Below, in pieces: positions 46,344 through 54,985 of a stretch of 62,288 nucleotides of DNA; position 1 is the first letter of the stretch, and each line of letters starts with the position of its first letter. The notes below the pieces were generated by a model. The model ran no database searches. It had not been told where the DNA came from and worked only from the letters and a program-made list of their open reading frames with translations. Source of the DNA: Syntrophomonadaceae bacterium (lineage in GTDB: Bacteria; Bacillota; Syntrophomonadia; Syntrophomonadales; Syntrophomonadaceae). The stretch covers positions 1 to 62,288 of the forward strand of contig JAAYCK010000136.1 in NCBI GenBank assembly GCA_012729835.1, read 5' to 3'. A program made the position numbers and the translations under genes.

Positions 46344-46832
46344 TTAGACGAAACGATCATCGGATCGTTTTTTCCTTACATCTTCCCGAGAGGCACTCAT
46401 CCATCCGCAGCTGGGATTGTTGGGACAGTCAAATGCCTGGATATATGGCTTGATATCAATCAAAGGAGTTCCATCCAGCATATCAGCCCCGCGTATTTTG
46501 AGACAATTGCCGTTGACTTCCAACAAGCGCACGATCGACATGCCCAGCCGGGACGGTCTTGACGGCGAGCGCGTAGCAAATATCCCTCTTTCAAGTGTAT
46601 CCATGAAAGGTATCACAATCATTTTTGTTTCTGTAACCTTGTGCAAATGATAAATCAGATAAATGTGGCTGAATCCATCCAGATCCCTAAGACCCTCCGC
46701 CAAGGCCTCGTTAATGATCACTTCGCCCTCGAAGGCATCCTCGTCTGCGCCAGCAGGTTGAACAGGCATACCTGCCAATTCCGTGAATTGGGTTCGGATA
46801 ACACCGATATAGTCAGTAGTATAAACACTCAT
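46344..46832 (-). CDS. trmO: TrmO/TsaA family methyltransferase
   Basis: A 162-residue beta-barrel SAM-dependent methyltransferase of the TrmO (TsaA, YaeB) family. The family segments are DYIGVIRTQF, LRDLDGFSHIYLIYHLHK, RGIFATRSPSRPSRLGMS and ADMLDGTPLIDIKPY. TrmO proteins N6-methylate t6A37 in tRNA. It lies 56 bases after a large protein with a second TrmO domain in an operon with an importer and a radical SAM protein, so a tRNA role is uncertain; a small-molecule substrate is as likely. Length is that of the catalytic domain without the C-terminal extension of E. coli TrmO. Confidence 0.88.
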   Translation of the reverse strand: MSVYTTDYIGVIRTQFTELAGMPVQPAGADEDAFEGEVIINEALAEGLRDLDGFSHIYLIYHLHKVTETKMIVIPFMDTLERGIFATRSPSRPSRLGMSIVRLLEVNGNCLKIRGADMLDGTPLIDIKPYIQAFDCPNNPSCGWMSASREDVRKKRSDDRFV

Positions 46833-46888
46833 GTTGCTACCTCCACCAGTTCACCTGATTCTGAATTTAACTTTCGGCTGCGACTGGT

Positions 46889-48979
46889 CTAACCTTTATC
46901 AACAATGGTTTTTTCCAACAATTCTTCATCAGGTAGATTTATTATACCATCACGAGTTAAATTCACATTTTTTAGGGAAATCGTTACTATGCGGCTGCCG
47001 CGCTGCCAGGCTACTGTTTGCCGGTCAGCAGCATGCACAAACTCGAACCTCGCCGGATTAGCCACTCGGGCCCGCGTTAATCCTTGGATCGTATCTGCCA
47101 GGCAGGCGGAACCGGTCACCTTAACCAGCAGGTCAGGCGAATTCAGCTTGCCAAACTCTTCCTCAGCCATCATGGCTATGCGCATAGCCATGAGAAAATC
47201 ATCACATTCCTCCTGATGATGACGTAAGGCTTCGGTATACATCATTTGGTAGATCATTTCTCTTTTCTGCGGCCTGATATAGGGAGCTCTTGGTGAGAAA
47301 ATAATATCCTGTTCAAAATATGGCTTTATGTCCAGCACCGGGGATCCATCAATGGCATCCAGACCTTGAACCTCTATCTTGTTTCCTTCCACCTTCAGGA
47401 TCTTCACCAGCGACAGTCCAAACGGATTCGGCCGCCCTGCGGTCCTGATTCCAAAAACTCCGTAAACAGGTGCTTCAGGATTCACTTTCTTGGGAACGGT
47501 TTCAAGTATTTCCCGGTTTGCTTTATGGAACCAGGTAAGAATCCACAGGTTGGAATGATCTTCAATTCTTCTTAGTCCGCCCATGTATTCCGGGAAGATT
47601 TCAATGGCTGCGGTCTGACCCTGCAGGGACATGCCAAGCACATCACTTTCCGGCGAATGCACGATTCCAATCTGCCGGATGTTAATCTCATTGATTGCGG
47701 CTTTGTCCGTCTGCAAACACGTACAGGCACTTTTTTCCGCCGCTTCTTTACCATGGCATGCTTCTATTTGCTGCGGGCTGCAATCTCCTGGTTTTCCTTT
47801 TAGTTTCCAAGGGTGTTTGCACATGTTTTCTTTTTCAGACATGGACATTGCCTCCTCAGTAATAACTGCCATTACCCCCTGATTGAAAAGATTCCTGGCA
47901 AAACACTCGATGCAAATATCCGCCCCGCTAGTGGTATGCGGAAACATACTTCGGCTGCCGACCGCGGCTCGTTTGATCCCCATATGCGCTCCAATGGTGT
48001 CTGTAGGGATATCTCTGAAATAGCCGGATAACGGGTATGGATTGTTTTCGTCGTCATCTTCATGGTAAGGATGGCCCTGCGGATAAGTCAGGAAGTGGTG
48101 TCTCCCCATATAGAGGGCAAAGAATTGCAGTTCTCCCTGCTCATAGTAGTACCAGCCATGCGAATTCGCGCAGCGCTGGTAAGGCAGCGGGAAATCCTCC
48201 AGGCCTACTCCCTCCACAACAATAATAGCGATTTTTTTATGAGGAAGGTTCTTTTCGATGAGTTCCCGGATATCTGTTATATTGTTCACCGAGCCTAATT
48301 CAGTGGCCACCGGAATGAAATAATTATGGGCTGGTATATTAACTGCTTTTCGGAGCGTGGTGCCGGGCGCCTTGTATGTGTACCCTTCTTTGGCTACCAC
48401 AAAGTACTCCGGCACGCGTTCCGTTTCTTTCGCTTGTCCTTGAAATAAATCCACCAGTTCGTTTTTGCTAACGATCCGTTCCACCTGGGGTAGGCCTTCT
48501 ATGTACTCCAGATCCTTGGGACTCGGATTATGCAAACCAGCGTAGCTGGCCGTCCAATTGCTGGCGATAGCCAATCCATCCAGACGGCTTAGATCAATGT
48601 ATCCTTTGATCGGAACCAATCCCCCTGAACCAACAATTACCGGGGTAAAACCCGATTGGACAACCAGCCGGTCAATCTCATGGAATACCGACTGAATCAC
48701 CTGTTCCCGCTCATCAGCGCTGGTCTCATGAAAGCGGAAAGTGAAGTACGGCAAACCGTAACTGATAAATGCGAACTGGGGCTGGTATTTATCAATCAGT
48801 TCGAGTGCAGTATCTGTCACCCAAGCGTTGGTGGCCATTTCCACATCACCGGGGAAAGGGTGCCGGGCAATGATACCTTTGACCATCTCCACATTGGGAT
48901 GATCGCTCTCCCGTTTTGCGCCAGTCTTCAGATCAAAAACCCTCTGCCATTCACGCGCATCGATGATTGCCAGGCTCAT
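46889..48979 (-). CDS. Three-domain protein: unknown N-terminus, TrmO/TsaA domain, FmdE-like domain
   Basis: A 696-residue protein from ATG 48979 (GAGGGGG site), overlapping the radical SAM stop by ATGA. Residues about 1-400 form a domain I cannot assign; segments such as FAFISYGLPYFTFRF, IIVVEGVGLEDFPLP and the ADICIECFARN cysteine motif suggest an alkaline-phosphatase-like or related fold, at low confidence. A Cys-rich linker (CKHPWKLKGKPGDCSP and CTCLQTDK) leads to a complete TrmO domain at about 450-590: IRQIGIVHSPESDVLGMSL, GVFGIRTAGRPNPFGLSLVK and GLDAIDGSPVLDIKPYF. The last 110 residues resemble FmdE (DFLMAMRIAMMAEEEFG, KVTGSACLADTIQGLT). The fusion is the strongest functional clue: methyl transfer plus an FmdE-like, probably metal-associated, domain in an importer operon. 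Biochemical role unknown. Confidence 0.8.
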   Translation of the reverse strand: MSLAIIDAREWQRVFDLKTGAKRESDHPNVEMVKGIIARHPFPGDVEMATNAWVTDTALELIDKYQPQFAFISYGLPYFTFRFHETSADEREQVIQSVFHEIDRLVVQSGFTPVIVGSGGLVPIKGYIDLSRLDGLAIASNWTASYAGLHNPSPKDLEYIEGLPQVERIVSKNELVDLFQGQAKETERVPEYFVVAKEGYTYKAPGTTLRKAVNIPAHNYFIPVATELGSVNNITDIRELIEKNLPHKKIAIIVVEGVGLEDFPLPYQRCANSHGWYYYEQGELQFFALYMGRHHFLTYPQGHPYHEDDDENNPYPLSGYFRDIPTDTIGAHMGIKRAAVGSRSMFPHTTSGADICIECFARNLFNQGVMAVITEEAMSMSEKENMCKHPWKLKGKPGDCSPQQIEACHGKEAAEKSACTCLQTDKAAINEINIRQIGIVHSPESDVLGMSLQGQTAAIEIFPEYMGGLRRIEDHSNLWILTWFHKANREILETVPKKVNPEAPVYGVFGIRTAGRPNPFGLSLVKILKVEGNKIEVQGLDAIDGSPVLDIKPYFEQDIIFSPRAPYIRPQKREMIYQMMYTEALRHHQEECDDFLMAMRIAMMAEEEFGKLNSPDLLVKVTGSACLADTIQGLTRARVANPARFEFVHAADRQTVAWQRGSRIVTISLKNVNLTRDGIINLPDEELLEKTIVDKG

Positions 48980-49983
48980 AATAAGACCCCCTCTATGTTC
49001 CAGTCGGTTTTGCTGCCAAGGAGACTGATTTCCCGGCCGCAGACCTGGCAATGGTTATCCAGGCAATGGAACCGGGTAAGCCGGTCCCCCCCGCAGCCAA
49101 GGCTCAGTCGTTCAATTACCTCAGCGCCGCAGTCCGGGCAAACGGTATTCACCCAATCAGAACCGACAAAATTGTGGAAATAGACATAATTCAGCTTTTC
49201 TCTCACGAGCATTAATGACTCGTTGATCCGGTCGATACTCGGATATTCACAATCTTTCATTTTGTATTCAGGTAAAAGGCGAAACACATGGAATGGTATG
49301 TCCCGGTCAATCTCAGCCAGAAAACCAGCCATTTCATCCAGTTCGTGATCATTTATGGTCTGTATAACAGGAACGGTTACCTCAATATGGTTAGTACGGG
49401 CCAAGCGCTTGATGTTGCGTAGAATAGGCTGGCCGTCCTTGATCCCGATATACTCCCGATAAAACTCCGCAGCCATGCCTTTTAGGCTGATGTTTATGAA
49501 AGAGAATATGGAAGCGATGATGTCTGATGCCTCTTCAGTCATGTAGGCATTGGTCAGACATCCCATGGACATCCCAGCCTTTTTCGCCGCCTGGCTGACT
49601 TCGATTAGTGACGGCATCGATACGGTCGGCTCGTTAACATTGAAGACAATATTATGACACCTTTGTTTTTGGGCCATGCGCACCAGTTCTTCGGGCGTGA
49701 ATTCGTAATTGCCTTCTTGTTGTTTGGCTGGTTCTTCCTTGGCAATGTAGGAATTTGAGCAATAGCGGCAGTCAAAATTACAGCTGCTGGTGCCAATAAC
49801 CATACTCTTACTGCCTGGGTAGGCATGATAGAAAGGAATTGATTCTATTTTCGAGATGCCGCAGGTACACCAGCGGTTGGGAAACCGCTCTTTAATTACA
49901 CCTTTTTCCTCATAGTACATCTTGCATACGCCATGCTTGTTCTCGTTCAGATCACAACGCCATTCACAATAATTACACCGCAC
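48976..49983 (-). CDS. Radical SAM protein, AmrS/PflA-like
   Basis: A 335-residue radical SAM protein. GTG 49983 is preferred because AGGAGG lies nine bases upstream; an ATG at 50001 overlaps the ATPase gene further. The cluster motif is CNFDCRYCSN (C-x3-C-x2-C). The N-terminal CNYCEWRC and the segment FYHAYPGSKSMVIGTSSC resemble AmrS of the AmmeMemoRadiSam system and PflX-like proteins. A C-terminal Cys-rich part (CPDCGAEV, CLDNHCQVCG) looks like a zinc ribbon or auxiliary cluster. AmrA and AmrB genes are absent. It is coupled by overlaps to the ABC ATPase upstream and the TrmO-FmdE protein downstream. Confidence 0.87.
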   Translation of the reverse strand: MRCNYCEWRCDLNENKHGVCKMYYEEKGVIKERFPNRWCTCGISKIESIPFYHAYPGSKSMVIGTSSCNFDCRYCSNSYIAKEEPAKQQEGNYEFTPEELVRMAQKQRCHNIVFNVNEPTVSMPSLIEVSQAAKKAGMSMGCLTNAYMTEEASDIIASIFSFINISLKGMAAEFYREYIGIKDGQPILRNIKRLARTNHIEVTVPVIQTINDHELDEMAGFLAEIDRDIPFHVFRLLPEYKMKDCEYPSIDRINESLMLVREKLNYVYFHNFVGSDWVNTVCPDCGAEVIERLSLGCGGDRLTRFHCLDNHCQVCGREISLLGSKTDWNIEGVLL

Positions 49984-50803
49984 CCAACAAAGCCTCCTCA
50001 TCTCCTATTTGTGTCTCAGGCGGGCACTTGCCCAAATTGCGCGGAACGATGACCGGCAACCCATCTATAGTACTTTCAATACTAATATTCTCCCCCAGTG
50101 CCTGCCGCAGATTAGTCTCCGTCATCACGCTTGGGGCAGGCCCCTTTACTACGACGCGACCGTGTTTCAGCATCATCACGTCATCACAATAATAGAGTGC
50201 CAGGTTGGGATCGTGCAGAGACACCAGTGCGGTAACGCCGCGCAGTTTAACCACTTTTTTGATGTGCTGCATCATCGCATGCTGGCTGCAGAAGTCCAGA
50301 TGTGCATTGGGTTCATCCAATAGCATTACTGGTGTATTCTGATAAAGTGCCCGGGAAAGCAGCACCATCTGCTGTTGTCCTCCCGAAAGCCTGGTATAGG
50401 CCGCTTTAGATAGAGCACTAATTCCCAACTCGTCCAATACTTTTTGCGCCTGCTTTATTTCCTTACGGCTGGGGGAGGTCCATGCCTTCATCCTGGCCGC
50501 GCTGCCCATTAATACCATGTCTAATACGGAAAAATCAAAAGCTGTAAAACTGCTTTGCGGTACTACACTAATGAGTTGCGCGATCTGCCCCCGGTCTAAA
50601 CCGCTGATCTCCTTCCCCATCACAGTAACCCGACCTCTGTCAGGTGTAATAAGCATATTGATACAATTCATAAGGGTGGTTTTTCCCGAGCCATTATGTC
50701 CTAATAACCCGCATATCCGTCCCTCGCTCACCCGGAGATCAATATTGTGTAAAACCGTCCTCTTACCGTATCCGGCATCAAGGCCACTGACCTCAAGCGT
50801 CAT
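49973..50803 (-). CDS. ABC transporter ATP-binding protein, FecE/BtuD type
   Basis: A 276-residue ATPase of the iron/cobalamin/siderophore importer family: Walker A GHNGSGKTT, Q-loop in VVPQSSFTAFDFSVLD, signature LSGGQQQMVLLSRAL, Walker B VMLLDEPNAHLDFCS and switch His in VSLHDPNLALYY. The DEPNAHLD box is a mild variant of DEPTSALD. It starts within the end of the permease gene and ends within the start of the radical SAM gene, so translation of the whole run is coupled. Confidence 0.92.
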   Translation of the reverse strand: MTLEVSGLDAGYGKRTVLHNIDLRVSEGRICGLLGHNGSGKTTLMNCINMLITPDRGRVTVMGKEISGLDRGQIAQLISVVPQSSFTAFDFSVLDMVLMGSAARMKAWTSPSRKEIKQAQKVLDELGISALSKAAYTRLSGGQQQMVLLSRALYQNTPVMLLDEPNAHLDFCSQHAMMQHIKKVVKLRGVTALVSLHDPNLALYYCDDVMMLKHGRVVVKGPAPSVMTETNLRQALGENISIESTIDGLPVIVPRNLGKCPPETQIGDEEALLGAV

Positions 50804-51815
50804 TTTTAGACACACCGCCTTTTCTGCTTAGTACCAGAAACCCTAAAAATGGCGCGCCGACGATCGACGTGAGAATGCTGATTGGGATCTCCGAAGTAGT
50901 TGCAGTTCGAGCCAATGTATCCATTAAAAGCATAAAGCTCCCCCCCAAAAACACGGAAACCGGAACCAGTCTTTTATGCTCCGTTCCCACCAAATAGCGC
51001 GCAATGTGCGGCATAATAAGACCGACCCATTTGATATCCCCTACCGTAGAGACAGCAGATGCCACAATAAGGGTACTAAGTGTGATGTAAATGATCCGCC
51101 ACTTCCTCACGTTAACTCCCAGGGATAGGATCTGTCTTTCGTCCTGAGTCATGATATTCAATCGCCAGCTAAAGACCGCAAGGAGAAGCGTACCGACAAT
51201 GATAATCGGCAATGTTGCCGCAACCTTAGCCCAGGTACTGGTCTGAAAACTCCCCATAGTCCAGAACATGATCTTGGCCAGCTGATCATAGGGATCAGCC
51301 AGATACTCTAAAAGAGACAACCCGGACTGAGAAAGAGCCCAGACGACGATCCCAGAGATGACCAGGACTGAGGCCGAGGTATCCCGGCTTCGCGCCGCCA
51401 AAAAATAAGTAATGACCACCGCGAGAATACCAAACCCGAAAGCAAATCCCTGGATCCCCAAGCTGGCTTCCGTAAGAAACACAATGCTGAGGGCTGCGCC
51501 GAAAGCCGCTCCCCCTGAAACCCCGAGGATATCCGGACTGGCCAATGGATTGCGAAATATTGCCTGGAAAACCACCCCAGCTACAGAAATTCCCGCTCCC
51601 ACGGCGAAAGCCATAATTACTCTCGGTATCCGAACATTCCAAAACACCATGGACATTTCCCCGGAGGGTGAAGGCAGAAAACCCGTTAATCCTACCCGAT
51701 CCAAGACCATACCGCATATGTCAGGGATTCCAATGGCATATCGTCCCATAGTCAGGGCAGCCACAAGCGAAACGATAAAGACCGATATTAAGATAACCCA
51801 AATGCGTTGCTTCAC
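50793..51815 (-). CDS. ABC transporter permease, FecCD/BtuC type
   Basis: A 340-residue permease with about ten helices, the size of a single FecCD/BtuC/HmuU-type subunit. Family stretches are VRIPRVIMAFAVGAGISVAG, NPLASPDILGVSGGAAFGAA and HIARYLVGTEHKRLVPVSV. It forms the homodimeric channel for a ligand captured by the lipoprotein encoded 40 bases upstream. Cargo classes of relatives include cobalamin, heme, siderophores and other metal chelates. Confidence 0.92.
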   Translation of the reverse strand: MKQRIWVILISVFIVSLVAALTMGRYAIGIPDICGMVLDRVGLTGFLPSPSGEMSMVFWNVRIPRVIMAFAVGAGISVAGVVFQAIFRNPLASPDILGVSGGAAFGAALSIVFLTEASLGIQGFAFGFGILAVVITYFLAARSRDTSASVLVISGIVVWALSQSGLSLLEYLADPYDQLAKIMFWTMGSFQTSTWAKVAATLPIIIVGTLLLAVFSWRLNIMTQDERQILSLGVNVRKWRIIYITLSTLIVASAVSTVGDIKWVGLIMPHIARYLVGTEHKRLVPVSVFLGGSFMLLMDTLARTATTSEIPISILTSIVGAPFLGFLVLSRKGGVSKNDA

Positions 51816-51855
51816 AATCCCCTCCCAGCGTTTTCCGGTTATTTAAGTAAATCAA

Positions 51856-52890
51856 CTATTCGAGTTTTCCGCCCATCTCAGTAAAGGTATGACCGTAGAA
51901 CTTTTTATAAAAATCATCTGCCACCTGGGTCATATTCACATCAGCAAACTTCTCCGGATAGAGGGTTTTGCCCATCCAAACCACGCCTAAAACACAATTT
52001 GGCGCGGGGAAATCCCACCAGCCGATATTCGATGGCATACTGTAGCCCTTTTTATTTTGGATAGCCCGGACAGTTTGAAAATGGGGATTTTTGTAGATCT
52101 GATCCTCGCCATATGTATCCCAGGTAGACCCCAGTATAATTATCTCCGGATTCCACGTCGCGACCTGCTCCGGTGACACTTCAGTCCAAAACCCTTTTAA
52201 GTCTTTGGAAACACTTACTCCGCCAGCCATTTCCATTAGAGCGCTATCCAGCATGTCGCCGCTGGCAACCGTATAGACGCTTTTCGGTCCTGCAAACATA
52301 ACCAGGGGCTTTTTATCTTCGGCAACCTTGCCTACCCGATCATTCACCAATTTCAATAACTTATTGCATTCGGCAATATAGGCTTCTCCCTTATCCTCAC
52401 AACCCAGGACTTTTGAAATCAGCCTGATAGCCTCATAGCTTTCCGCCATGGTTTCACCTTTTACTGCAACAACCTTGATTCCGGCATTTTCAAACCTACC
52501 AATTAAGTCTTTTTCAGTGTAAGCATACACAAATGCCACCTGCGGGTTCAGCGCTATGACACTCTCGATGTTATAATTCATTCCCTGCGAAACCACCGGT
52601 TTTGCAGCATAATCCGGATCAATCGTATCTAAGGCATCCCCCAGCTTCCCCCCAATCGCATGATCCACCAGTTTGTCCCCTTCTCCCAGTGCATAAACCA
52701 CGCCCGGACCGAATAAATGGGTTCCGGTAACCTTGGTTATGTTTTTGGGGACTGTCACTGTCCTGTCCAGTTGATCTTTTACAGTAATCGTCTCTGCAAC
52801 CGGGGCGGCAGTTTGTTTGGCACATCCACTAAGGAGGGCACATATTGTAAGTGTTAAAACCAGCAGCATTGATAAGTGCGTTCTGTTCAT
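51856..52890 (-). CDS. ABC transporter substrate-binding lipoprotein, FepB/BtuF type
   Basis: A 344-residue lipoprotein with lipobox ICALLSGC (residue 23) and a type III (helical backbone) solute-binding fold: TITVKDQLDRTVTVPKNITK, then VIALNPQVAFVYAYTEKDLI and ATWNPEIIILGSTWDTYGED. First gene of a six-gene operon (importer, radical SAM, TrmO-FmdE fusion, TrmO). The KDQLDRTVTVP start is standard for metal-chelate or corrinoid binders. No cobalamin riboswitch is seen in front of it. Confidence 0.92.
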   Translation of the reverse strand: MNRTHLSMLLVLTLTICALLSGCAKQTAAPVAETITVKDQLDRTVTVPKNITKVTGTHLFGPGVVYALGEGDKLVDHAIGGKLGDALDTIDPDYAAKPVVSQGMNYNIESVIALNPQVAFVYAYTEKDLIGRFENAGIKVVAVKGETMAESYEAIRLISKVLGCEDKGEAYIAECNKLLKLVNDRVGKVAEDKKPLVMFAGPKSVYTVASGDMLDSALMEMAGGVSVSKDLKGFWTEVSPEQVATWNPEIIILGSTWDTYGEDQIYKNPHFQTVRAIQNKKGYSMPSNIGWWDFPAPNCVLGVVWMGKTLYPEKFADVNMTQVADDFYKKFYGHTFTEMGGKLE

Positions 52891-53250
52891 TCTCCTAATC
52901 CCTTCTTTCTAAAGTATTGAAACCAGGTAACATGCTGATATATAAACCTGTTATTCATCACCGCCTTATTACACACAATCGCTTTCACAAATTGTTTATT
53001 AATAATACAAAAACCCGGCATAGACTAACCGGGCTCATATACGCAGATGTCAATTCACGAACTACTCTTTATGTAGAGTAACACATAAACATCGAAAGTG
53101 GTAGGTTTTTGTTGCTTTTTGTTTGCTTTGGTTGTCATGTCCGCAATGAATTGTTGATCCTTGTTGGGTTTTGTTCTGCATATGTACACTCGATACACGA
53201 ACAATAACACGAATTTGCCTGTAAAGATGGCCTCTATGTGTAGATTTTGA
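52891..53250. other. Gap between divergent importer operon and ABC-F leader
   Basis: No riboswitch box or long frame was recognised. On the minus strand AGCCCGG/CCGGGTT with TTTTTG at about 53000-53036 forms a terminator-like hairpin, which could attenuate the importer operon or end an unknown upstream transcript. A 39-codon minus-strand frame (starting MQNKTQQGSTIHCGHDNQSK) overlaps that area, has no ribosome binding site and no assignment. ACTCTACATAAAGAGTAG-like palindromes occur at about 53068-53085. Confidence 0.35.
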
Positions 53251-53368: not shown

Positions 53369-53480
53369 CAGGAAAGTTGATGCGTTCTGAAAACACATGG
53401 TTTATTAAATCCATACCGTAATACGGTGCAAACCGCTGTGCTGCCATGAGCTGTAGGAACGAACTTTCCTGCAGTTTTTT
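53369..53480 (+). promoter_or_regulatory. Attenuator in front of the ABC-F gene
   Basis: A terminator (CTGTAGGAA 53451-53459 with TTCCTGCAG 53466-53474, then a T6 run) precedes the ABC-F gene. CAGGAAAGTT at 53369-53378, which includes the leader peptide's ribosome binding site, is complementary over 10 bases to AACTTTCCTG at 53462-53471 within the terminator's 3' arm, so antiterminator and terminator exclude each other. A smaller ACCGT/ACGGT hairpin overlaps the leader stop codon. Confidence 0.78.
53380..53421 (+). CDS. Leader peptide of the ABC-F gene (13 aa)
   Basis: ATG at 53380, four bases after AGGAAAG, encodes MRSENTWFIKSIP and stops. Its translation would interfere with pairing of the ribosome-binding-site strand and alter whether the downstream terminator forms. 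This is the layout of ribosome-mediated attenuation known for antibiotic-resistance ABC-F genes such as vmlR and lmo0919. Confidence 0.65.
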   Translation: MRSENTWFIKSIP

Positions 53481-53506: not shown

Positions 53507-54985
53507 ATGTCACTCATAAATGTCAACAATCTGACCTTCAGCTACGACGGCGTATTAGATAATATTTTTGAAAATGTCAGCTTTCAGATCGATAGTGACT
53601 GGAGACTTGGTTTTACCGGAAGAAACGGCCGTGGAAAAACCACTTTTCTGAATCTCCTGATGAAGAAATTCGAATATAGCGGCAGCATATCAGCCAGTGT
53701 ATCCTTTGAATACTTTCCTTACCAGGTACATGATGAACTGATGGATACGAGCGAAGTAGTCCATACCATTGCCAGAGGTTATCAGGATTGGCAGCTTATC
53801 AGGGAATTGAATCTGCTGGAAGTGTCAAATGATGTGCTTTACCGTCCGTTTTTTACCCTTTCGAACGGTGAGCAGACCAAGGTGCTGCTGGCCGCTTTAT
53901 TCCTTAAGGAAAATAGGTTTTTGCTTATTGATGAGCCTACCAATCATCTCGATATGCATGGCCGAAGAATCGTAAGCGAATACCTGCGCAGCAAATCTGG
54001 ATTCATACTGGTTTCTCACGACCGGGCATTTCTGGACAATTGCATCGATCACATTCTGTCGATCAATCGGACCAATATTGAGATTCAAAAGGGTAATTTC
54101 TCTTCATGGTGGTACAACAAGCAGCTACAGGACAATCTGGAATTAGCCAGGAATGAAGCATTAAAAAAGGACATTATAAGAATGGAGACTTCCGTCGCAC
54201 GCGTTTCTGATTGGTCCGACCGGGTAGAAAAATCCAAAAAGGGTACGCTCAATTCTGGAATAAAGCCTGACAAGGGCCATATCGGGCATAAATCAGCCAA
54301 AATGATGAAGCGTTCCAAGACCATCGAAAGCAGACTGCTTAATGCTGTTGAAGAAAAATCATCGCTGTTGAAGAATATAGAAACAGCATCATCCTTAAAG
54401 ATTCATCCTTTGAAATACCATACTGATACACTGGTTTCTCTCCAAGAAATCATTATTAGCTATAGTGAACGAACGATCTGTGCAGGGATCAGTTTCGATA
54501 TTCACTCAGGGGACAGAATTGCTCTGTGCGGGAAAAACGGTTCTGGCAAATCCAGTATTGCCAGGCTCATCGTTGGTGAATGCATCCCCTATCAAGGCAT
54601 AATAAAAAAGGGAACCCGACTGAAGATCTCTTATGTCAGTCAGGCAGCTTCAGGACTGGCTGGTAACCTCACTGATTACGCCAAGGATTTTGGCATTGAT
54701 CAAACCCTGTTCAGAACCATACTTCGCAAGCTGGACTTTTCAAGAGATATGTTCGACATGGACATCAAAAATTTCAGCGATGGGCAGAAGAAAAAAGTCA
54801 TGATTGCTCGCAGTCTTTGCGAATCAGCCCATCTGTATATCTGGGATGAGCCACTCAACTATATTGACGTGATATCCAGAATGCAGATCGAGGATCTTCT
54901 GAGATACCATAAGCCGACCCTCCTGTTTATTGAACATGATCAGGCTTTTTGTGATAATATTGCCACCAGAACTATTCTCTTGTAA
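53507..54985 (+). CDS. ABC-F ribosomal protection protein (Lsa/Vga-like)
   Basis: A 492-residue soluble twin-ATPase without membrane helices. NBD1: GRNGRGKTTF, FTLSNGEQTKVLLAAL and LIDEPTNHLD. An interdomain linker of about 80 basic, helical residues (ARVSDWSDRVEKSKKG and onward) is the antibiotic-resistance-determining region that reaches into the peptidyl-transferase centre. NBD2: GKNGSGKSS, NFSDGQKKKVMIARSL and IWDEPLNYID. Such proteins displace lincosamides, streptogramin A and pleuromutilins from stalled ribosomes. A GGAGG site precedes the ATG. Leader peptide and attenuator make antibiotic induction likely. Confidence 0.9.
   Translation: MSLINVNNLTFSYDGVLDNIFENVSFQIDSDWRLGFTGRNGRGKTTFLNLLMKKFEYSGSISASVSFEYFPYQVHDELMDTSEVVHTIARGYQDWQLIRELNLLEVSNDVLYRPFFTLSNGEQTKVLLAALFLKENRFLLIDEPTNHLDMHGRRIVSEYLRSKSGFILVSHDRAFLDNCIDHILSINRTNIEIQKGNFSSWWYNKQLQDNLELARNEALKKDIIRMETSVARVSDWSDRVEKSKKGTLNSGIKPDKGHIGHKSAKMMKRSKTIESRLLNAVEEKSSLLKNIETASSLKIHPLKYHTDTLVSLQEIIISYSERTICAGISFDIHSGDRIALCGKNGSGKSSIARLIVGECIPYQGIIKKGTRLKISYVSQAASGLAGNLTDYAKDFGIDQTLFRTILRKLDFSRDMFDMDIKNFSDGQKKKVMIARSLCESAHLYIWDEPLNYIDVISRMQIEDLLRYHKPTLLFIEHDQAFCDNIATRTILL

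Follow-up and report, generated by a model that had tools for sequence, protein, structure and literature searches.

Organization of the Locus

We analysed contig JAAYCK010000136.1 of a Syntrophomonadaceae bacterium, an uncultured anaerobe (positions 1 to 62,288, a stretch of 62,288 nucleotides (nt) referred to here as the window), focusing on a compact gene cluster at 46344-52890. This cluster encodes a FecBCD-family importer, a radical SAM protein, a 696-residue fusion protein whose first 378 residues we call NDOM, and a stand-alone TrmO-type protein. The conserved core consists of importer, radical SAM protein and NDOM, and the operon is probably a locus for the acquisition and processing of molybdate or tungstate, the latter being more likely.

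Six minus-strand open reading frames (ORFs) are packed there in an operon-like manner, just where an earlier note on this DNA, made from the sequence alone, had put them, and the coordinates confirm the gene overlaps that it reported. Because the genes overlap or sit only 40-56 nt apart, a single transcript is likely. The features are as follows, with Pfam E-values where a Pfam family is named:

51856..52890, minus strand: substrate-binding lipoprotein of a FecBCD-family (type II) importer, MolA-like (Peripla_BP_2, PDB relatives, lipobox)
50793..51815, minus strand: FecCD-family permease (FecCD, 6.8e-83)
49973..50803, minus strand: ATP-binding cassette (ABC) ATPase (ABC_tran, 8.8e-30)
48976..49983, minus strand: AmrS-like radical SAM protein (Radical_SAM, 5e-19; invariant cysteines)
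47846..48979, minus strand: NDOM, residues 1-378 of the 696-residue protein (conserved, without family match)
47693..47842, minus strand: Cys-rich linker of the 696-residue protein (CKHPWKLKGKPGDCSPQQIEACHG...CTC; a small separate ORF in Desulfosporosinus sp. Tol-M)
47300..47692, minus strand: TrmO domain of the 696-residue protein (TrmO_N match; residues of the S-adenosylmethionine (AdoMet) site)
46889..47242, minus strand: FmdE-like C-terminal domain of the 696-residue protein (sub-threshold Pfam and PDB matches)
46344..46832, minus strand: stand-alone TrmO-type protein of 162 residues, archaeal-type (TrmO_N, 2e-37; TIGR00104)
53011..53036, minus strand: terminator-like hairpin (consensus match only)

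The Pfam matches bear out the identities previously given to the lipoprotein, permease, ATPase and stand-alone TrmO. Two gene starts are probably to be revised. For the ATPase, the ATG at 50803 is likelier than the GTG at 50815 that opens the longest ORF; for the radical SAM gene, homology begins at a conserved MRCNYCEW, which suggests the GTG at 49983 rather than the listed ATG at 50001. With these likelier starts the permease/ATPase and ATPase/radical SAM overlaps measure ~11 nt each. The radical SAM and fusion genes overlap by 4 nt (ATGA), while gaps of 40 nt and 56 nt separate the binding protein from the permease and the fusion from the stand-alone TrmO, respectively.

A Conserved Core Associated with the Moco/Tuco Riboswitch

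To place the operon in context, we compared 27 loci carrying NDOM (the window, L024-L026, L028-L042 and L091-L098, with the operon cut short by the edge of the contig at L092 and L095; L090, which repeats L025, and short fragments were excluded). The radical SAM gene was adjacent to NDOM at 19 of the 27 loci and FecBCD genes at 18, which agrees with the co-occurrence of FecBCD and AmrS-like neighbours that the earlier note had proposed as a check. The Moco/Tuco riboswitch, RF01055, was likewise nearby at 19. Its arrangement varies: riboswitch and importer are divergent from NDOM at L039, L040 and L042, and at L098 the riboswitch lies ~6 kb upstream, before a ModABC-like set. Neither a cobalamin riboswitch nor another metal riboswitch was found at any of the 27 loci.

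Further support comes from 399 genomes sampled evenly across the phylum, a collection less biased than the set of 27 loci. NDOM occurred in 14 of these genomes and the radical SAM protein, counted at E<1e-100, in 15. The two genes were neighbours in all 14 NDOM genomes (Fisher P 6e-25), and the match in the fifteenth radical SAM genome lies at a contig edge. FecBCD genes adjoined in 13/14 and RF01055 in 10/14. Importer, radical SAM protein and NDOM thus constitute the conserved core of the operon, and the view that importer and radical SAM enzyme belong together is upheld.

A rough chance model that counted riboswitches up to 7 kb away, in both directions and on both strands, gave P values of 8e-20 (range about 1e-20 to 1e-19) at typical site density and 3e-12 at the densest for 19/27, and of 4e-11 and 4e-7 for 10/14, all of which overstate the surprise because related loci are not independent. 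At L032, L033, L034, L036 and L041, NDOM stands directly behind RF01055 without the radical SAM gene; its role is therefore tied to the riboswitch even where no importer adjoins. AFOR_N, a tungsten enzyme family, was also tried as a co-occurrence marker and set aside as uninformative, since it is present in 52 of 63 genomes of the class.

NDOM and the Origin of the Fusion Protein

The 696-residue product had been described as a TrmO-FmdE fusion. Both domains are indeed present, but over half of the protein, residues 1-378, is a third domain that this description overlooked: the order is NDOM, Cys-rich linker, TrmO domain and a weak FmdE-like domain. NDOM had no match in Pfam, NCBIfam or PDB, and a PDB search with a 14-row NDOM profile was also empty. 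Beyond its own genome it was matched in 16 of 100 relatives (one of the 16 being a decayed fragment), mostly as a separate protein of 360-430 residues. On this sequence conservation, NDOM is a protein family of its own. Its invariant positions include D, E, W and S residues.

The closest relative locus, L024 of Desulfosporosinus sp. Tol-M (identity to the window 75% for NDOM, 77% for the radical SAM protein and 61% for TrmO-FmdE), has the same gene order, with NDOM, a small Cys-rich protein and TrmO-FmdE as three separate ORFs. The window protein is therefore a three-part fusion, which arose from these three neighbouring genes. A degenerate partial repeat of the NDOM 3' end was also observed at L024:8379-8514, between NDOM and the Cys-rich ORF. 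In the window, the NDOM/Cys-rich junction reads GAGGAGG-CA-ATG-TCC-ATG, with in-frame ATGs, and resembles a gene start; the GAGGAGG and the ATG at 47842 may be a relic of one, perhaps still permitting internal initiation.

The separate ORFs in L024, the start-like junction and the occurrence of the three-part fusion in a single genome would also be expected had a base error in sequencing or assembly joined adjacent genes. Such an artefact is nonetheless quite improbable, as it needs errors at two junctions, the second of which has no in-frame start at its TrmO boundary, and the frame is open throughout with conserved sequence on either side.

The Importer and Its Ligand

The binding protein (Peripla_BP_2, 6e-27) carries the lipobox LLSGC. 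Its top PDB relatives, 4hn9 and 4ovk, are not characterised; they are followed by HI_1472/MolA (3psa) at 1e-32, in an alignment covering residues 37-335, and at a distance by FhuD-type proteins (5e-8) and BtuF (1.5e-7). MolA is thus the nearest characterised relative, far ahead of BtuF, and it binds molybdate and tungstate (PMC4031551).

The earlier note had suggested a metallophore, corrinoid or pterin as the type of small molecule involved. In line with the corrinoid option, the importer might take up a corrinoid, haem, siderophore or nickel/cobalt chelate that the neighbouring enzymes then modify. In NCBIfam, permease and ATPase come nearest to models of the BtuC, haem and F420-0 types, though far below their cut-offs, and some TrmO-FmdE genes elsewhere adjoin energy-coupling factor (ECF) transporters with an ABC_cobalt S component. 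The riboswitch beside NDOM is nevertheless RF01055, never one for cobalamin or another metal, and the similarity of the binding protein to MolA far exceeds that to BtuF. We consider a chelate of this kind very unlikely, and the corrinoid and siderophore proposals are not sustained; a pterin is still compatible with the data.

The genome of the window contains ten RF01055 copies, one of which precedes a paralogous FecBCD set and another a tungstate-type TupABC set, the latter recognised by reading the translated products. Three further observations concern importers. In the same genome, L054 (G000:C100) has a Moco/Tuco riboswitch and, behind it, a second FecBCD set together with a gene for a 248-residue protein that has a sub-threshold TiaS-like match. 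A gene similar to that for the 248-residue protein lies between FecBCD and TrmO-FmdE at L143. At L063 (G000:C110), a third FecBCD set shares a single run with FmdE and a class I methyltransferase, and no Moco riboswitch was found there.

The Radical SAM Protein

The cluster motif CxxxCxxC (C74-x3-C78-x2-C81) is invariant in 11 homologues, and the protein also has an N-terminal set of cysteines and C-terminal cysteine pairs. Its best NCBIfam relative is the AmmeMemoRadiSam family TIGR04337 (E 6e-44), so that the AmrS half of the earlier AmrS/PflA-like label describes its kinship well, but with 150.3 bits against a curated cut-off of 220 it does not qualify as a member. PADLOC gave nothing but weak viperin matches to this gene, which were taken as superfamily similarity.

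The same radical SAM group has a second branch, whose proteins are ~600 residues long. The window's own genome encodes a 605-residue radical SAM protein fused to a C-terminal Peripla_BP_2 lobe (E 9e-10; G000:C60:10511-12328, or L149:5512-7329), next to an NMT1-type ABC transporter and DUF364. A homologous 592-residue protein with a FecB/MolA-type C-terminal lobe is found in the single-contig genome G021 (2,936,195 bases; L150:11756-13534), within a run of genes for methyltransferases, several binding proteins, DUF4213/DUF364, MoeA and FecCD/ATPase, and RF01055 is present in the same region. Through these lobe fusions and this MoeA/FecCD run, the radical SAM group is tied to both FecBCD-type import and molybdenum insertion, independently of the NDOM loci.

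Putative chelation genes near the core bring up another explanation, namely that the operon makes and recovers a molybdenum/tungsten metallophore, built by the radical SAM protein, NDOM and TrmO (elsewhere also by DUF364 and a class I methyltransferase) and imported in loaded form by FecBCD. FecBCD importers often carry chelates. At L026 (Spirochaetia) the order is DUF4213-DUF364, FmdE, methyltransferase, importer, radical SAM protein and NDOM, with TrmO on the opposite strand, and a role for DUF364 in chelating heavy metals with flavin- or pterin-like compounds has been put forward (PMC2954201). We hold a metallophore to be unlikely, however: the operon has neither an exporter nor a recognisable scaffold-building enzyme, the nearest characterised importer, MolBCA, transports the bare oxyanion (PMC4031551), and in several genomes NDOM stands alone under the riboswitch.

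The TrmO and FmdE-like Domains

The TrmO_N domain of the fusion spans residues 453-556 (6e-28). Both TrmO proteins exceed the TIGR00104 cut-off (the stand-alone protein scoring 114 against 93), and they are the only TrmO genes in their genome. All four AdoMet-contact residues (Q22, R82, D111 and K122 in AF0241 numbering) are found in the stand-alone protein; in the fusion R, D and K are clear, and Q aligns but is not conserved among other TrmO-FmdE proteins. The C-terminal DPRxxY motif was found in neither protein.

The assignment of the C-terminal domain to FmdE stands in part. Residues 588-641 score 15 bits, below the Pfam gathering cut-off of 22.9 (E 0.026); in its favour are a weak PDB match to 2glz (E 0.001) and the same sub-threshold match in two relatives. 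The motifs HHQEEC and C..D..Q are conserved, including in A3.

The two-domain protein TrmO-FmdE is itself widespread: 38 of 101 relatives carry it, in 48 full-length copies altogether. Only two NDOM operons, those of the window and L024, contain it. At L038 it belongs to the neighbouring operon, placed after RF01055, a molybdopterin oxidoreductase and XdhC and before DUF364. TrmO-FmdE is mostly a separate gene and a recent addition to the operon. The earlier note had linked TrmO and FmdE to import on the strength of their company in this operon. They do recur beside metal and cofactor importers, in 8 of 20 sampled loci (NMT1-type ABC at L129, L130, L132 and L140; ECF at L135, L136 and L145; FecBCD at L143), but mostly outside the NDOM operon, and because TrmO-FmdE is usually away from it, the fusion alone does not imply a task for TrmO in import. 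At L133 and L134, TrmO-FmdE sits directly behind an adenine deaminase-like gene.

Could the TrmO domains simply be ordinary tRNA m6t6A methyltransferases, with the FmdE-like domain replacing the tRNA-binding C-terminal domain and their location in the operon incidental? The family scores and retained AdoMet-contact residues, the lack of other TrmO genes in the genome and the family-wide occurrence of TrmO-FmdE outside the operon all favour this. The DPRxxY domain is, however, required for activity in the proteobacterial TrmO of E. coli, and archaeal-type homologues without it perhaps have other targets (PMC4132733); its absence leaves room for a possible non-tRNA substrate of the window proteins, and the importers at 8 of 20 loci also speak against a purely tRNA-directed role. 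We give the tRNA explanation serious weight, at somewhat less than an even chance.

Proposed Function

Several lines of evidence converge on a molybdenum/tungsten (Mo/W) locus: RF01055 lies near most NDOM loci in both samples; MolA is the closest characterised relative of the binding protein; RF01055 in the same genome precedes the paralogous FecBCD and TupABC sets; the radical SAM group includes fusions to Peripla_BP_2, one of which is encoded, in a near relative, in the same run as MoeA, DUF364 and FecCD/ATPase; and at L038 TrmO-FmdE stands behind RF01055 with molybdopterin oxidoreductase and XdhC. Given these results, acquisition and processing of molybdate or, with greater likelihood, tungstate is a probable function of the operon. 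Lipoprotein, permease and ATPase would form a type II, MolBCA-like importer of the oxyanion, either bare or in a simple complex. Within the cell, the AmrS-like radical SAM enzyme, with NDOM as its dedicated partner, would carry out a step serving the supply of Mo/W cofactor, to which TrmO-FmdE and the stand-alone TrmO may have been added in this lineage as AdoMet-dependent accessories. We infer the import of molybdate or tungstate by the window importer from homology and regulon, and every enzymatic step named for the radical SAM, NDOM and TrmO parts is likewise putative.

Some observations weigh against this assignment. RF01055 is absent from the window operon both at the gathering cut-off and at E<=10, and it was not found at L024 either, so that the Mo/W link of the window copy is by homology. 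In the PDB, the binding protein matches 4hn9 best, an entry annotated only as an iron-complex binding protein. RF01055 copies without P3 have been linked to the tungsten cofactor (Regulski et al., PMC2408646), and P3 is missing from all 19 NDOM-linked copies; it is missing, too, from nine of the ten copies in the window's genome, and for this reason its absence does not discriminate. The P3-less riboswitches are compatible with tungsten, without separation from the background. Structure prediction gave no help with NDOM: two AlphaFold2 runs on four sequences yielded no usable model (predicted local distance difference test (pLDDT) scores of 48 and 42). The top Foldseek matches, phosphonoacetate hydrolases of the alkaline-phosphatase superfamily, were not significant (E 0.05, TM 0.2, for the model with pLDDT 48) and are at most a lead.

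As for the leader itself, the terminator-like hairpin at 53036-53011 (minus strand), ~120 nt upstream of the first operon gene, is a possible attenuator; it had no Rfam match. The leader folds no better than its shuffles (z -0.25) and has no significant sequence in common with that of L024. Divergent from the operon, 53507-54985 (plus strand) encodes an ABC-F-like protein with duplicated ATPase, preceded by a terminator-like hairpin (53448-53477), as in attenuated ABC-F resistance genes.

A more specific version of the Mo/W assignment is rather doubtful and is offered tentatively. Radical SAM protein and NDOM might perform a maturation or processing step of Mo/W metabolism that has not been described before and is linked directly to an importer dedicated to the oxyanion. 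The product could be, for example, a variant of the pterin cofactor or a carrier of the metal, and TrmO-FmdE could methylate the same small molecule and not tRNA. How anaerobic bacteria of this kind discriminate between tungsten and molybdenum and channel tungsten into cofactors is still poorly known. The present data place in their Mo/W regulon a radical SAM group and a family-less domain that are inseparable in the phylum sample. If the pair acts there, an enzymatic step not seen before, lying between import of the metal and the cofactor, would become testable with a defined set of genes; this would also supply a substrate hypothesis for archaeal-type TrmO proteins.

Comparison with Known Systems

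The importer, the riboswitch and the single domains are of kinds already known. Neither NDOM nor its obligate pairing with a radical SAM protein inside the Mo/W regulon turned up in the searched family libraries and papers. Most NDOM loci resemble the known RF01055 regulon in standing beside the riboswitch together with transporters and cofactor genes, and in Syntrophomonas wolfei an RF01055 operon bears three tandem copies (PMC2408646). The window copy differs in having no riboswitch, and the text of PMC2408646 mentions no FecBCD, FmdE or radical SAM. DUF4213/DUF364 proteins ('putative heavy-metal chelation') accompany FecBCD, FmdE, methyltransferase and MoeA at related loci, but are missing from the window operon.

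Among characterised importers, MolBCA of Haemophilus influenzae (HI1470-1472) is likewise a FecBCD-family type II system, and MolA resembles the window binding protein; unlike in the window operon, no radical SAM, NDOM or TrmO partner of MolBCA is described in PMC4031551. AmrS (TIGR04337) is partnered by AMMECR1/MEMO, whereas the window radical SAM protein pairs with NDOM. The window TrmO domains share the beta-barrel domain and AdoMet-contact residues of TrmO/YaeB (UPF0066), but lack its DPRxxY domain, and one copy is fused to FmdE-like and NDOM parts. A two-domain architecture of FmdE (PF02663) and UPF0066 was listed in 2010 (PMC2954224), apart from which our literature search found no paper combining FmdE and TrmO; to this architecture the window protein adds NDOM and a Cys-rich segment.

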